Assembly: GCF_016464305.1 (NCBI RefSeq)
Contig: NZ_JAEIOJ010000002.1
Span: 1 to 64,000, forward strand
Origin: Umezawaea beigongshangensis
GTDB lineage: Bacteria; Actinomycetota; Actinomycetes; Mycobacteriales; Pseudonocardiaceae
Direction of reading: 5' to 3'
Length of the DNA stretch: 64,000 nucleotides
Under the pieces are notes generated by a model. The model saw nothing but the letters and a program-made list of their open reading frames with translations. It did no database searches and had not been told where the DNA came from. The position numbers and the translations under genes were made by a program. Shown one piece after another: positions 2,562 through 13,880 of this stretch. The stretch's first letter is position 1; each line of letters opens with the position of its first letter.

Positions 2562-3278
2562 TCACCTGCGTCGCAGCAGCTTCACCAGGATCAGCAGCGC
2601 GGCCACGGCCGCCGCGGCGGCGGCCACCGGCACGGGCCTCTTGCGCACCTCGGCGGAGTACGTCCGCACCTGTTCCGTCGCCGCGGAAGCGGTGTCGCGG
2701 GCGCGGTCGGCGGCGTCGGAGGCCACGGACGCGGCGTTCTCGACGACGCGGCTCGCCGTCTCGGTGGCGCGGTCGGCCACCGTGCCACCGAGCTGCGCGG
2801 CCTGATCCGAGGCGGCCGACACGGTCTCCTGGACCTTCTGGGCGACCTGCTCGGTCGAGCCGGTCCGCTCGTCCTGGTCGTCGGCGCCGGTCTCGCCGGT
2901 CGCGCCGGTCTTCGCGGGCTCCTCGGCCCCGCCGGTCGCGCCGGTCGCGCCGGTCTTCGCCGGCTCCTCGGCCCCGCCGGTGGCACCGGTCTTCGCCGAC
3001 TCCGCGGCCCCGCCGGTCGCACCGGTCTTCGCGGGCTCGTCGGCTCCGCCGGTCGCACCGGTCTGCTCGGTCCTGCCGCCGGGAGCGGGCGTCTCCTTCT
3101 TGGCCCTCTCTGCCGCCTGCGCGACCTTCTGGACCTTCTCCGCCGGGGTCCTGGTCGTGTCGGCGATCTGCTCCTGCACGCGCCGGGCGTCCTCGCGCGC
3201 CAGGGCGGGGTCGGCGGGCAGCTCGGACGCCTCGGCGGCCGTGTCGCTGGACGTGCGCTGGCCTGCGGACTCGGTCAT
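2562..3278 (-). CDS. Repeat-containing membrane-anchored protein, DUF3618/DUF883-like C-terminus
   Basis: The 238-residue protein is hydrophilic and Ala/Glu/Thr-rich. After about 75 residues comes a run of four to five 12-residue units of the form KTGATGGAEEPA, then a predicted amphipathic helix region (AASDQAAQLGGTVADRATE, ASVASDAADRARDTASA) and a single C-terminal membrane segment PVAAAAAAVAALLILV followed by KLLRRR. That tail resembles DUF3618-type envelope proteins, which often end in a short helix plus Arg-rich tail. The ATG at 3278 is chosen because GGAGGG lies 6 nt upstream; an ATG 11 codons further out has no such site. The job is unknown; a cell-envelope or stress role is a guess. 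Confidence 0.75.
   Translation of the reverse strand: MTESAGQRTSSDTAAEASELPADPALAREDARRVQEQIADTTRTPAEKVQKVAQAAERAKKETPAPGGRTEQTGATGGADEPAKTGATGGAAESAKTGATGGAEEPAKTGATGATGGAEEPAKTGATGETGADDQDERTGSTEQVAQKVQETVSAASDQAAQLGGTVADRATETASRVVENAASVASDAADRARDTASAATEQVRTYSAEVRKRPVPVAAAAAAVAALLILVKLLRRR
2899..3063. repeat. 36-bp coding minisatellite (12-residue units)
   Basis: Four to five imperfect copies of a 36-bp unit (core GCCGGTCGCACCGGTCTTCG on the plus strand) lie inside the DUF3618-like gene. One copy carries a 6-bp extension, a sign of recent slippage. The unit is a multiple of three so copy number can change without breaking the gene. Confidence 0.8.
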
Positions 3279-3442
3279 CGGTATCCCTCCGTCGGTGATC
3301 TCGTCACCCACCTACCCGAACCGCGCGTCCGGCAACCATCGACGCGTCCGTTCGGGCGTTGTGCCTCGCGGGTGCATCCGTTCACCGCCGGGAGTGGGAA
3401 GATCATCGCCCCGACCGGGTGACCAACAGGAGAGCAGTCGCG

Positions 3443-5020
3443 GTGACGACCACGGCGCGGAAGCGGAAACGCGGTACGCGCACCGACCTCGTGCGCATCA
3501 GGGTGAGCCGCCTGGTGATCGCACTCGTCCTGCTCGCGGCGGCGGCCCGGCTGGTCCAGGTGCAGGGCGTGCGGGCCGCGGCGCTGTCCGCCGAGGCCGA
3601 GCAGCAGCGCACCATCACCGAGACCGTGCAGGGCCTGCGCGGGACCATCGCCGACCGCAACGGCATCAGCCTCGCGTTCAGCGTGTCCACCCGGAAGCTG
3701 TGGATGAACCCGGTGGTGCTGCGCGGGGACTGGAAGGCCAACCCCGACTCCTACCGGGCGCTGAAGCTCGGCAGCACCTACGAGGAGTACACCGCGCGGC
3801 TGGCGGCGAAGCTGCACATCGCCGTCGGCGGGCGCGTCCCGGAGGACTCGCTGCTCGCGTCGATCCGCTCCGACCGCGGCTACGTCGTGCTCGCCGACGA
3901 CGTGGACCCGGTGCTCTCGGCCGAGGTGGTCGAGCTGTACCCGTCGGTCGGGACCGAGGTGCGGCAGCGGCGGGTGTACCCGTCCGCGCCGGTCGGACAG
4001 GCCGTCGTCGGGACGGCGAACTGGCGGACCGACGCGACGCCGCCCGGCATGTACGGCCTGAGCGGCCTGGAGAGCTCGTGGGACGGGCGGTTGCGCGGCG
4101 TCGACGGCAAGCGGATCTACCAGATCGCGCGCTCGCGCGACGACCTGGAACTGCCCGGCGCCTCCCGCACCGTCGAGCAGGCCGTGCCGGGCTCGAACGT
4201 GCGGCTGACGCTGGACGCCGACCTCCAGCACCGCGCCCAGTCGCTGCTGGAGGACCACGTGGCCCTCAGCGGCGCGACCTCGGGCGCCGCGATCGTCGTG
4301 GAGGTCGCCACCGGCGAGGTGCACGCCCTGGCCGTGTCCGGCGAGCTCGACCCGGCCCGCACGGCGTTCGAACCCGGCGCGGCGGCGTCGATCGCCGCCG
4401 AGGCCGCCGCGGTCGAGCAGGGCGTCGACTCCCCCGCCGACGTGGACGCGGAGCGGTTCGCCGCGCTGCTGGACCGCTGCGGCCTCGGCGAGAGCACCGG
4501 CTCGGGACTCCCCGGCGAGACCGGCGGACGGCTGCCGCCGCACAACCAGTGGTCGGCGGCGACGCTGCCGGGACTCGTCGCCGGTGAGGGCGTCGAGACG
4601 ACCCTGCTCCAGCTCGCCGGGATGTACCAGGCGATCGGCAACGAGGGCCTGCGGCTGCCGCCGTCGGTGGTCAAGGAGGAGCGCCGCGCCGACGGCACAC
4701 CCGTCCCGCTGACGAGACCGGACCCGGTGCAGGTGGTGAGCCCGCAGACGGCGCGGGCCGCGCTCGCGGCGCTCCCGGAGACCGGCGCGGCGCGGGCGTT
4801 CCCCTCCGCCGGCGCCGAGGGCCGCTCGCGGCACCTGGACCGCGGCACCGGGCAGACGTGGCTGCGCGACGTGTTCGCCGGACTCGTCCCCGCCGAACAG
4901 CCGCGCTTCGCGCTGGCCGTGGTGCTGCACGGGCAGATCGCGGAGGCCCGCGCGGAGCCGGTGTTCCACGACGTCGCCGCGGACCTGGTGTTGCGCCACG
5001 GCATCCCCGCACCGCCCTGA
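3443..5020 (+). CDS. Penicillin-binding-protein-like transpeptidase homologue, probably catalytically dead
   Basis: The protein (525 residues from GTG 3443, with CAGGAGAG about 9 nt upstream) has a basic N-tail, one membrane segment near residues 22-36, a PBP dimerisation-type region (RGTIADRNGISLAFSVSTRK near 65-85, YPSAPVGQAVVGT near 180) and a transpeptidase-like end with SGLPGE and GEGVETTLLQLAGMY. It looks like a class B PBP (FtsI/PbpA type). However, the SxxK box expected after the PG of FEPG reads GAAASIAAE (about 312-320), the stretch holding SxN is shortened, and the KTGT box is replaced by RHLDRGTGQT near 463-472. All three penicillin-binding motifs are lost while the frame is intact, suggesting a scaffold or regulatory pseudoenzyme in the envelope. 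It converges on the sigma gene across a perfect hairpin. Confidence 0.8.
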   Translation: MTTTARKRKRGTRTDLVRIRVSRLVIALVLLAAAARLVQVQGVRAAALSAEAEQQRTITETVQGLRGTIADRNGISLAFSVSTRKLWMNPVVLRGDWKANPDSYRALKLGSTYEEYTARLAAKLHIAVGGRVPEDSLLASIRSDRGYVVLADDVDPVLSAEVVELYPSVGTEVRQRRVYPSAPVGQAVVGTANWRTDATPPGMYGLSGLESSWDGRLRGVDGKRIYQIARSRDDLELPGASRTVEQAVPGSNVRLTLDADLQHRAQSLLEDHVALSGATSGAAIVVEVATGEVHALAVSGELDPARTAFEPGAAASIAAEAAAVEQGVDSPADVDAERFAALLDRCGLGESTGSGLPGETGGRLPPHNQWSAATLPGLVAGEGVETTLLQLAGMYQAIGNEGLRLPPSVVKEERRADGTPVPLTRPDPVQVVSPQTARAALAALPETGAARAFPSAGAEGRSRHLDRGTGQTWLRDVFAGLVPAEQPRFALAVVLHGQIAEARAEPVFHDVAADLVLRHGIPAPP

Positions 5021-11350: not shown

Positions 11351-12088
11351 TCAGGCCGGGCGCAGGACGAACACACCCCACCCGAGGTGCTCGCGCGCGA
11401 GCAGGTGGCCCCGTCGCGAGCGCGTGAGGAACTCGCGGACCCCGTCGTGGTCGGGGTCGTCGGGGTTGGCCCTGAGCCACTCGTCCAGCGCCCACCACTG
11501 CGGCGCGACGTAGCGGTCCCAGCTGCCTCCGTCGGCGAGGACCATCTCGATCAGCTCGACACCCGCCGCGGTGAACCGGTCGAGCGTGCCGGGCAGCGAG
11601 GTGAACATCTCCTCGGGGAAGCCGAACGCGTCGAGCACCTCCTGCGGCGGGGGCGAGGTCCAGCAGGGCTCGCCGACGAGCAGCAGCCCGCCGTCGCGCA
11701 GCGCGGGCCTCATCAGCTCGATCGTGCCGGCGAGGCCGTCGCCGATCCACGTGGCGCCCAGGCAGGACACCACGTCGAAGGACGCGGGTTCGGCCACGTA
11801 CCGCGCCGCGTCGCCCCGCACGAAGCGCACCTGGTCGGTGACGCCCAGCTCGGCGGCCCTGGCGTGCGCGGCGGCGAGGAAGACATCGCTGATGTCGACG
11901 CCGACGCCGTGGACGCCGTGACGCAGCGCCCAGGTGCACAGCATCTCGCCCTTGCCGCAGCACAGGTCGAGCAGTCGTCGTCCGGCGGAGAGCCCGGTCA
12001 GCTCCCCCAGCAGGGCGACGTGGTGTTCGGAGACGGGGTTGAGAATCCGGTTGCGGGACTCGGCGATCTCGTGGAAGCGCAGCGACAC
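11351..12088 (-). CDS. Class I SAM-dependent methyltransferase
   Basis: Transfers a methyl group from S-adenosylmethionine to an unknown acceptor. The 245-residue protein has motif I LLDLCCGKGEMLCTWA, motif II GVDISDVFLAAA, DAARYVAEPASFDVVSCLGA and the post-motif VGEPCWTSPP, then an Arg/Trp-rich C-terminal lid. The two adjacent cysteines in motif I are unusual but known in this group. GTG 12088 is selected because GGAGAACGTC precedes it; the frame runs further upstream but reads low-complexity sequence. Confidence 0.85.
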   Translation of the reverse strand: MSLRFHEIAESRNRILNPVSEHHVALLGELTGLSAGRRLLDLCCGKGEMLCTWALRHGVHGVGVDISDVFLAAAHARAAELGVTDQVRFVRGDAARYVAEPASFDVVSCLGATWIGDGLAGTIELMRPALRDGGLLLVGEPCWTSPPPQEVLDAFGFPEEMFTSLPGTLDRFTAAGVELIEMVLADGGSWDRYVAPQWWALDEWLRANPDDPDHDGVREFLTRSRRGHLLAREHLGWGVFVLRPA

Positions 12089-12674
12089 GACGTTCTCCGT
12101 GCTCGAGGAGGGACCGGCCGGACACCGTCGACGACACCCGCACCACGGTCGTCCCGCGTCCTCCTTCTCGTCCACGATCCGTGCCGGACCCGCGACCGTA
12201 CCGGTGGAACGGGGGTCGGCCAACCGGTTTCCCGGCCGCACCGCCGACGGGCGGTCCGCGGCCCGGACGGCGGTGGTGGTGGCCGGTGAGAACCGGCCGG
12301 TCCACTCCCGCTCCTCGGGCTGCCCGAGCAGCGGTGCCCCGAGGACGCCGCGTCGATCACCGCGGTCGTGGACCAGCTCGACGGCCGGTGCGAGCGCCGT
12401 GCACGAGGACGGCACGCCCACCGTCGCGTCGCGGGGTGGGGGTCGCAGCCCCCGGACCACGTGGTGCCCGCCGGTCACCGGACCGGGCCGGTGCTGGTGC
12501 AGGACCTCGCCGACCGCGTGGTGGTGGCCCCGGCGGCGCGGGAGGTCGCGGTGGAGCCGGACGCGACGAGCGTGTCGGTGCCCGTCGTGGGCGGGAGGTG
12601 CCGCTCGGCGCCCGCGCGGAGGCCAGTACTCTCCTGCCACCGCTGTAGGACGGGCCTCGGGAGGACCTCCAGGA
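12089..12674. other. Gap with coding-like but broken sequence
   Basis: About 585 bases without an intact gene. Two short plus-strand stretches have the G/C third-position bias of real genes but lie in different frames: about 12385-12445 (ending in AVHEDGTPTVASRG) and about 12450-12600 (DHVVPAGHRTGPVLVQDLAD and RVVVAPAAREVAVEP). This suggests the remains of a decayed gene, or a gene with a sequence error, whose family I cannot name. The right end holds the promoter and GAGGACC ribosome site of the next gene. Confidence 0.35.
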
Positions 12675-13880
12675 ATGAGCACCCCGATCCACCGCGTGGT
12701 CGTCGTCGGCGCGTCCACCGCGGGGCTGTCCACGGCGGAGTCGTTGCGGCGCGGCGGACATCGCGGGGAGATCGCGCTGATCGGGGACGAGCCGAGTCCG
12801 CCCTACAGCCGCCCTCCCCTGCTGAACCAGGTGCTGCGCGGCGACTGGAGCCCCGAGCGCGCCCAGCTGCGCTCCGCCGACGAGCTGACCGCGCTGCGCC
12901 TGGAACTGCGGGTCGGCACCACGGCCACGGGCCTCGACCTGGACGCGCGCGAGGTGTCGCTGTCCGACGGGTCCACCACGGACTACGACGCCCTGGTGAT
13001 CGCGACCGGCGTGCGTCCGCGCGTGCTGCCCGGCGTGGACGGCGTCTCCGGCGTGCACTCGCTGCGGACGCTGGAGGACGCGCTGAACTTCCGCAAGCGC
13101 CTCGTCCCCCGCAGCCGCCTGGTGGTCGTGGGCGCCGGGCTCCTCGGCACGGAGGCCGCGGCGCTCGCGCGGTCCGAGGGCGTCGACGTGTGCGTGGTGG
13201 AACCGGCGTCGGCCCCGCTCGCGGGACTCGTCGGCGATCAGGCCGGTGCCGTCGTGGCGGCGGCGCACCGGGAGCACGGGGTGGACCTGCGCACCAGCAC
13301 CGGTGTCGCGTCGATCCTGTCGGTCGACCGGCGCGCGACCGGCGTGTGGCTGTCCGACGGCACCACGCTGTCCGCCGACACCGTGCTCGTGGCCATCGGA
13401 TCGCGCCCCAACGTGGAGTGGTTGCGGGGCAGCGGGATCGTGCTGGACGACGGCGTGGTGTGCGACCGCTTCTGCTCCGCCGCACCGGGCGTGTGGGCGG
13501 CGGGGGACGTCGCGCAGTGGCAACACCCGGTGCTGCGGGCGCCGGTGCGGGTGGAGCACCGGGCGAACGCCGCGGCTCAGGGTGCGCTGGTGGCGTCGAA
13601 CATCCTCGCCGAGGGCGCGCTGACGCCCTTCGAATCCGTACCGCACTACTGGTCCGAGCAGTACGACCTGCGCATCGACGTGCACGGGCACCTGGCGGGA
13701 CACGACGAGTGCCACGTCCTGGAGCTGGACCCGGAGTCGCGCCGGTTCCTCGCCGTGTACCGCAGGGGTGAGCACCTCACGGGCGTCGCCGGGATCAACA
13801 TCGCGCCGCGCGTGCTCCGGCCGTGGCGCACCGCGCTGAGCGCCGCGACGACCTGGCGCTCGGTCCTGCACGGCGGCTGA
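12675..13880 (+). CDS. FAD-dependent NAD(P)H oxidoreductase, ferredoxin/rubredoxin reductase type
   Basis: Passes electrons from NAD(P)H to a small iron-sulfur carrier, typically for a cytochrome P450 or dioxygenase. The 401-residue protein has the N-terminal FAD site VVVVGASTAGLSTAESL, IATGVRPRVLPG, the NAD site VVVGAGLLGTEAAALARSEG, the second FAD block GVWAAGDVAQW, and a C-terminal reductase domain with VPHYWSEQYDLRIDVHG. This is the BphA4/putidaredoxin-reductase architecture. The first FAD fingerprint reads GASTAG rather than GxGxxG, a tolerated change. No ferredoxin or P450 lies beside it, so its partner is elsewhere. Confidence 0.92.
   Translation: MSTPIHRVVVVGASTAGLSTAESLRRGGHRGEIALIGDEPSPPYSRPPLLNQVLRGDWSPERAQLRSADELTALRLELRVGTTATGLDLDAREVSLSDGSTTDYDALVIATGVRPRVLPGVDGVSGVHSLRTLEDALNFRKRLVPRSRLVVVGAGLLGTEAAALARSEGVDVCVVEPASAPLAGLVGDQAGAVVAAAHREHGVDLRTSTGVASILSVDRRATGVWLSDGTTLSADTVLVAIGSRPNVEWLRGSGIVLDDGVVCDRFCSAAPGVWAAGDVAQWQHPVLRAPVRVEHRANAAAQGALVASNILAEGALTPFESVPHYWSEQYDLRIDVHGHLAGHDECHVLELDPESRRFLAVYRRGEHLTGVAGINIAPRVLRPWRTALSAATTWRSVLHGG

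Follow-up and report, generated by a model that had tools for sequence, protein, structure and literature searches.

The window, a stretch of 64,000 nucleotides from Umezawaea beigongshangensis, carries a forward-strand gene whose product, judged by its domains and motifs, is an FtsI/PBP3-type class B penicillin-binding protein (PBP) without a catalytic site. The neighbours of the gene are a 249-aa ORF, a sigma-70 factor, an HxlR regulator and a DEAD helicase, and it does not lie in a division or cell wall cluster. The features assigned to the locus are as follows.

3428..3432, + strand: Shine-Dalgarno-like AGGAG, 10 bases 5' of the GTG, read from the sequence
3443..5020, + strand: gene for the dead FtsI paralogue, 525 aa, with a GTG start picked from the AGGAG and the alignment
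3482..3601, + strand: putative membrane anchor and juxtamembrane helix, residues 14-53; a helix in the AlphaFold2 model, with 5 of 5 invariant anchor-region columns kept
3638..4192, + strand: pedestal or PBP dimerisation domain, residues 66-250 (alignment limits); PF03717 matches at 63-228 and 22 of 22 invariant columns are kept
4193..5017, + strand: transpeptidase-fold domain without catalytic motifs, residues 251-525, from the PF00905 match, conserved columns and predicted fold
4379..4390, + strand: position of SxxK, which reads AAAS (residues 313-316), from the alignment
4442..4447, + strand: junction of a 46-residue deletion that removes SxN (residues 334/335), from the alignment
4814..4825, + strand: position of KTGT, which reads AEGR (residues 458-461), from the alignment

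The frame 3443-5020 (+) is open over 525 codons, as the earlier note on this DNA had stated, and its GC content by codon position is 0.77, 0.53 and 0.97. A promoter scan limited to sigma-70 types found no promoter-like site, and a terminator scan returned one terminator-like site where 0.5 would be expected. The adjoining 249-aa ORF (2562-3311, - strand) is divergent and has no Pfam match; units of the KTGATG type recur in it, and its C-terminal segment is hydrophobic.

The window protein has the build of an FtsI/PBP3 class B PBP, with a single anchor (a predicted helix), a pedestal and a transpeptidase fold, the last seen as a partial PF00905 match and in PBP3 structures at Z about 42. In Pfam, the PBP_dimer match scored 35.4 bits against a cut-off of 24.4 and the Transpeptidase match (PF00905) 64.8 bits against 22.1, the latter confined to residues 333-511 and profile positions 113-297, so that it starts at the deletion. 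Scores for the NCBIfam equivalogs of PBP2/MrdA (TIGR03423, 124.9 bits against 455) and SpoVD (TIGR02214, 96.5 bits against 688) place the protein in neither group. It is about 100 residues shorter than FtsI of the family; the dead copy of genome G019, described below, has 627 residues.

An AlphaFold2 model of the protein has the FtsI fold with a mean pLDDT of 87, although its input alignment (A1, 32 rows, mostly canonical FtsI) biases the prediction toward that fold. The top PDB relative by sequence was M. tuberculosis PBP3 (6kgh, E 6e-62). VIA-align also placed 6kgh first (Z 42.2, rmsd 2.2, 353 aligned residues), tied with the other PBP3 entries 6kgs and 6kgw and with 4ye5 and 7rcz, all within 1 Z of it, and Foldseek ranked P. 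aeruginosa PBP3 first. With its catalytic residues gone and its predicted fold kept, the protein looks in these two respects like a pseudoenzyme.

Loss of the catalytic motifs

Our ingroup alignment comprised 60 rows, 54 canonical and 6 dead, and the S-K, S-N and KTG residues were kept in 54/54 canonical FtsI rows. In the window protein the three motifs that define the enzyme read AAAS, deleted and AEG. The earlier note had called the first AAAS-type and the second deleted, and the alignment agrees on both. It had also described KTGT as replaced by RHLDRGTGQT; the loss itself is confirmed, but the string it named (residues 463-472) lies just downstream of the AEGR that occupies the aligned position.

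A relocated Ser/Lys pair that sustains transpeptidase or hydrolase activity would undo this picture, as the earlier note recognized. Two S..K strings occur in the protein, STRK at residue 82 and SVVK at 408, and neither is at the active-site position. In the model, the old SxxK position is carried on a helix (residues 312-326), and both strings appear to lie off it, STRK in a strand of the pedestal and SVVK after the missing block. The patterns S.N and K[TS]G occur nowhere in the protein, and sequence and predicted secondary structure together reveal no apparent substitute pair. We therefore regard a relocated catalytic center as very improbable.

The same residues bear on the proposal, also made in the earlier note, that the protein is a beta-lactam decoy or resistance factor. 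A PBP decoy must be acylated to work. The window protein has lost the nucleophile, the general base and the KTG lysine, so neither stem peptides nor beta-lactams are expected to acylate it, and without the serine on which covalent capture depends the decoy idea fails. Nothing beyond PBP homology speaks for it, and we give it next to no credence.

Distribution, origin and constraint of dead FtsI copies

An intact FtsI with all three motifs is encoded elsewhere in the same genome (G000, contig C11). The genome has nine PF00905 matches in total, and the other eight keep SxxK, SxN and KTG. Given the intact FtsI and these motif-complete genes, the window gene is, on sequence grounds, a spare, dead FtsI copy.

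Searches of 390 family genomes found an FtsI-like match in 380 and two matches (E 1e-12 or better) in 11. In six of these 11 (the window genome, G019, G257, G033, G137 and G138), one FtsI is intact and one is dead. For the remainder, the pairs in G076 and G249 are apparent fragments of one gene, the second matches in G221 and G233 are distant PBP-like proteins (L075 and L074), and G173 has two copies (L062 and L070) with all three motifs in both, which may be how the process that yields dead copies begins. Dead copies occur in 4 of 46 genera (g1, 1/1 genome; g20, 1/7; g28, 1/8; g34, 3/3), and a dead second FtsI is thus rare and patchy in the family. Three candidates were scored per genome in the first family search and five in the later family and order searches; at the E cut-offs used (1e-60, 1e-12 and 1e-18), diverged copies may be missed. 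An order sample that included family members gave matches in 267/397 genomes, with two matches only in G000 and G033. A class-wide search matched 242/246 genomes, often twice, which may reflect split matches or other PBPs, and we confine our claims on dead copies to the order. Contigs searched with the window protein gave one distant match, in Photobacterium (32% over residues 375-468).

The dead copies differ in how far the active site is lost. The G019 copy has lost all three motifs; in both it and the window copy the SxN block is missing entirely, as is the KTG lysine. The G257 copy reads AVQK and MTG, and its SxN serine is not aligned. The three g34 copies (G033, G137 and G138) are nearly full length and read GAAA or GTAA at the first motif, SSD for SSN, and KSG or KPG at the third. 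The neighbourhood of the dead copy is common to all three g34 genomes. A neighbourhood shared by all dead copies was considered and rejected, as the adjoining genes outside g34 were unrelated among the genes checked.

In the tree, the window and G019 copies fell inside the g20 FtsI clade (support 100/100), and the G257 copy next to FtsI of its own genus (100/99), while the three g34 copies stood apart. Both the window and G019 copies are long branches (1.3 changes per column for the window copy). With either one left out, the remaining copy still falls within the g20 clade. The placements of the main tree hold in a second tree built after removal of the motif regions (49 of the 60 rows; the 11 dropped were mostly near-copies). 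Pairing of the window and G019 copies was moderately supported in the main tree (93/80) and in the second tree (86). The main tree was given L074 and L075 as outgroup, L074 being also one row of A1. The alignments omit duplicate fetches (L003, L056, L057, L058, L066 and L071), fragments or copies cut by contig ends (L032, L064, L065, L072 and L073), and L004 and L055.

A single clade of all six dead copies was rejected (p-AU 7.8e-9), as was a grouping of the window and G019 copies with those of g34 (p 0.006). From these topologies, dead FtsI copies appear to have at least three separate origins in the family. Duplication of the genome's own FtsI was rejected as the source of the window copy (p-AU 3.5e-4). 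Since the window copy groups with the FtsI of another genus, it was probably acquired from a g20-like donor, as suggested by the tree alone. In the lineage of the window and G019 copies, the motifs may have been lost either once or twice.

Orthologues with intact motifs had been named in the earlier note as a sign of recent decay at this locus. This is half of what we found: among intact proteins, those closest to the window copy are ordinary FtsI from a different genus, whereas the G019 copy with its triple loss pairs with the window copy, at the moderate support given above. We set aside decay in one genome only, as the G019 copy sits, with that moderate support, on the same branch and the g34 dead copy is kept in 3/3 genomes.

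Selection was directly measurable in g34, where dN/dS of the dead copies is 0.18-0.24 versus 0.075-0.103 for intact FtsI in the same genomes. The g34 copies are under purifying selection. By region, dN/dS is highest in the N-terminal part with the anchor (0.31-0.50), followed by the pedestal and start of the transpeptidase domain (0.19-0.24) and the rest of the dead domain (0.16-0.21); the anchor region is therefore the least constrained part in these copies. For the window copy, synonymous sites are saturated and dN/dS is not measurable, and selection on it can be approached only indirectly, through conserved columns and the persistence of the open frame.

The window copy keeps 27/27 columns that are invariant in anchor and pedestal (35/37 at a 95% threshold). 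Among 64 invariant non-catalytic transpeptidase columns it keeps 38, with 14 changed and 12 deleted, and is more worn than the g34 copies, which keep 54 to 56 of the same columns. Across canonical FtsI (1402 pairs), identity in the transpeptidase core tracks identity in the pedestal. Core identity of the window copy fell below the pedestal-based prediction by a median z of -4.1 over 54 canonical rows, whereas the remaining five dead copies lay at -1.6 to -3.4 and six canonical controls at -0.3 to 0.2; these z values are descriptive rather than p values, as the pairs share ancestry.

Part of this evidence could also describe a decaying pseudogene whose frame is still open by luck. Drift would also give the long branch, the changed and deleted transpeptidase columns would fit, the gene is rare and patchy, and the dN/dS of the window copy offers no test. 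Decay is nevertheless unlikely in our judgement, given that every invariant column of anchor and pedestal is retained and the g34 copies are constrained. Furthermore, the GC content of 0.97 at third codon positions and the intact frame contrast with randomly substituted frames, which break. When a canonical gene received 0.5 random substitutions per site under three GC biases, a fully open frame of 525 codons survived in 0, 0 and 3 runs out of 300, and this simulation was lenient in that indels were left out. Because random substitution so seldom leaves 525 codons open, chance does not account well for the frame. The G019 copy is likewise open at a distance comparable to that of the window copy.

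A proposed role in septal synthesis

The SEDS-bPBP model gives FtsI two tasks: it cross-links, and through its pedestal it activates FtsW allosterically. Laboratory mutants can separate the two. Our preferred reading, to which we assign a probability of about 0.5, is that the window protein is an FtsI pseudoenzyme that tunes a SEDS glycosyltransferase, probably FtsW, via its anchor and pedestal. One helix would hold the protein in the membrane, with the pedestal and transpeptidase-fold domains predicted to lie outside. Anchor and pedestal would join a SEDS glycosyltransferase, with FtsW the first candidate, and docking could occur in place of, or beside, the real FtsI. The switching on of septal glycan polymerisation may thereby be altered without cross-linking.

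Docking on a SEDS protein is the simplest account, because what the window copy has kept corresponds to the portion of E. coli FtsI that passes activation on to FtsW: mutations that activate or inactivate FtsWI concentrate at the contact between the FtsI pedestal and FtsW loop ECL4 (PMC8078798). The at least three separate origins, combined with the kept anchor and pedestal, suggest that the recurrent dead copies have a regulatory rather than an enzymatic job in division wall building. The earlier note had read the gene as a pseudo-transpeptidase kept for a structural or signalling role. Its non-catalytic retention is borne out by the intact FtsI elsewhere, the recurrent losses, the selection in g34 and the kept columns, and the reading as a whole is supported in part.

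Roles for division PBPs beyond catalysis have been described in other systems. B. subtilis PBP 2B supports division without its catalysis if PBP 3 is present (PMC5656894). Similarly, C. difficile PBP3 promotes asymmetric division in part independently of its own catalysis (PMC12713402). In S. aureus, the essential functions of PBP1 extend beyond catalysis, and its enzyme activity is essential as well (PMC9426605). The window copy would resemble PBP 2B S309A in that a division PBP serves a structural role apart from catalysis (PMC5656894), but S309A is a laboratory mutant of the division PBP, whereas the window copy is a natural, separate paralogue beside an active FtsI. It would share with C. 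difficile PBP3 the status of an additional class B PBP that aids a division without catalysis, but that protein has an active-site serine (PMC12713402), and the window copy has none. Compared with actinobacterial FtsI/PBP3 (PbpB), such as M. tuberculosis PBP3, the pedestal and transpeptidase fold are alike, but the window copy lacks SxxK, SxN and KTG, is shorter, and sits outside the division cluster with an intact FtsI in the genome. Further parallels are the dead copies of G019, G257, G033, G137 and G138, genomes in which a nucleophile-less second FtsI likewise accompanies an intact one; their origins are separate, except that the G019 copy pairs with the window copy. Among the open-access papers listed, titles and abstract openings pointed to no description of naturally dead FtsI paralogues.

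The opposite effect would follow if the same docking made the dead FtsI a brake, a natural dominant-negative that ties up FtsW or FtsQLB and thereby reduces septal synthesis, as might happen during a developmental stage. The kept anchor and pedestal columns suit a brake equally. Sporulation in C. difficile suffers more from a catalytic mutation in PBP3 than from its deletion, and competition for a SEDS partner is one possibility raised by the authors (PMC12713402). On the other side, K211I in E. coli FtsI activates FtsWI (PMC8078798). The K211 column holds Thr in 52/54 canonical rows and Ile in the window copy, in a stretch where the local alignment is uncertain; this points weakly toward activation at most, and we place no weight on it. 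We consider a brake possible but doubtful.

A further alternative is a cell-wall sensor, whose transpeptidase fold would recognise stem peptides or muropeptides, leave them chemically unchanged and signal their presence to the divisome. The KSG or KPG and SSD residues of the g34 copies, the constraint on their dead domain and the confident fold prediction for the window copy are all compatible with a sensor. A ligand site common to all dead copies is unlikely, however, because neither the window copy nor the G019 copy retains the SxN block or the KTG lysine, and we hold this alternative to be quite unlikely overall.

Several observations speak against tuning of a SEDS glycosyltransferase: the anchor region is the least constrained part in g34, neighbourhoods outside g34 are unrelated, the branch of the window copy is long, and the gene is rare and patchy. 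Contig C11 carries an FtsW-type gene about 6 kb from the intact FtsI. Among the genes checked beside the dead copies, by contrast, none was a SEDS or other division gene. Across 25 genomes, three SEDS genes exceeded the cut-off in G000 and G017 and two in each of the rest, with a third match in G138 under the cut-off. G017 has a single FtsI match, so the extra SEDS gene does not follow the dead copies, and no SEDS gene distributed like a partner of theirs was seen in these genomes. The third SEDS (FtsW/RodA) gene of the window genome (L108, 6050-7816 of G000:C22) lies near a GH25 lysozyme-like gene and has no adjoining PF00905 match.

More broadly, though with less confidence than for the window protein, we suggest that bacteria may have repeatedly converted a spare FtsI into a dedicated non-enzymatic SEDS regulator that switches or limits FtsW via the pedestal and leaves cross-linking to others, perhaps for the spore or hyphal septum in filamentous actinobacteria. 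If true, natural proteins with only the FtsW-activating half would be independent evolutionary evidence for the SEDS-bPBP model and simple reagents for testing it. Annotation as a penicillin-binding protein need not mean penicillin binding.

Other genes of the window

Two further genes of the window, both on the - strand, have unusual profile matches. The NAD kinase gene (555-1559) is matched above cut-off by Pfam; all 18 listed NCBIfam models fall below their curated cut-offs, and most NCBIfam NAD kinase models match as two separate stretches, perhaps owing to an insert between the domains. For the methyltransferase-like gene (11351-12733), the longest frame starts far upstream and the real start is probably later, since the methyltransferase matches begin only near residue 240.
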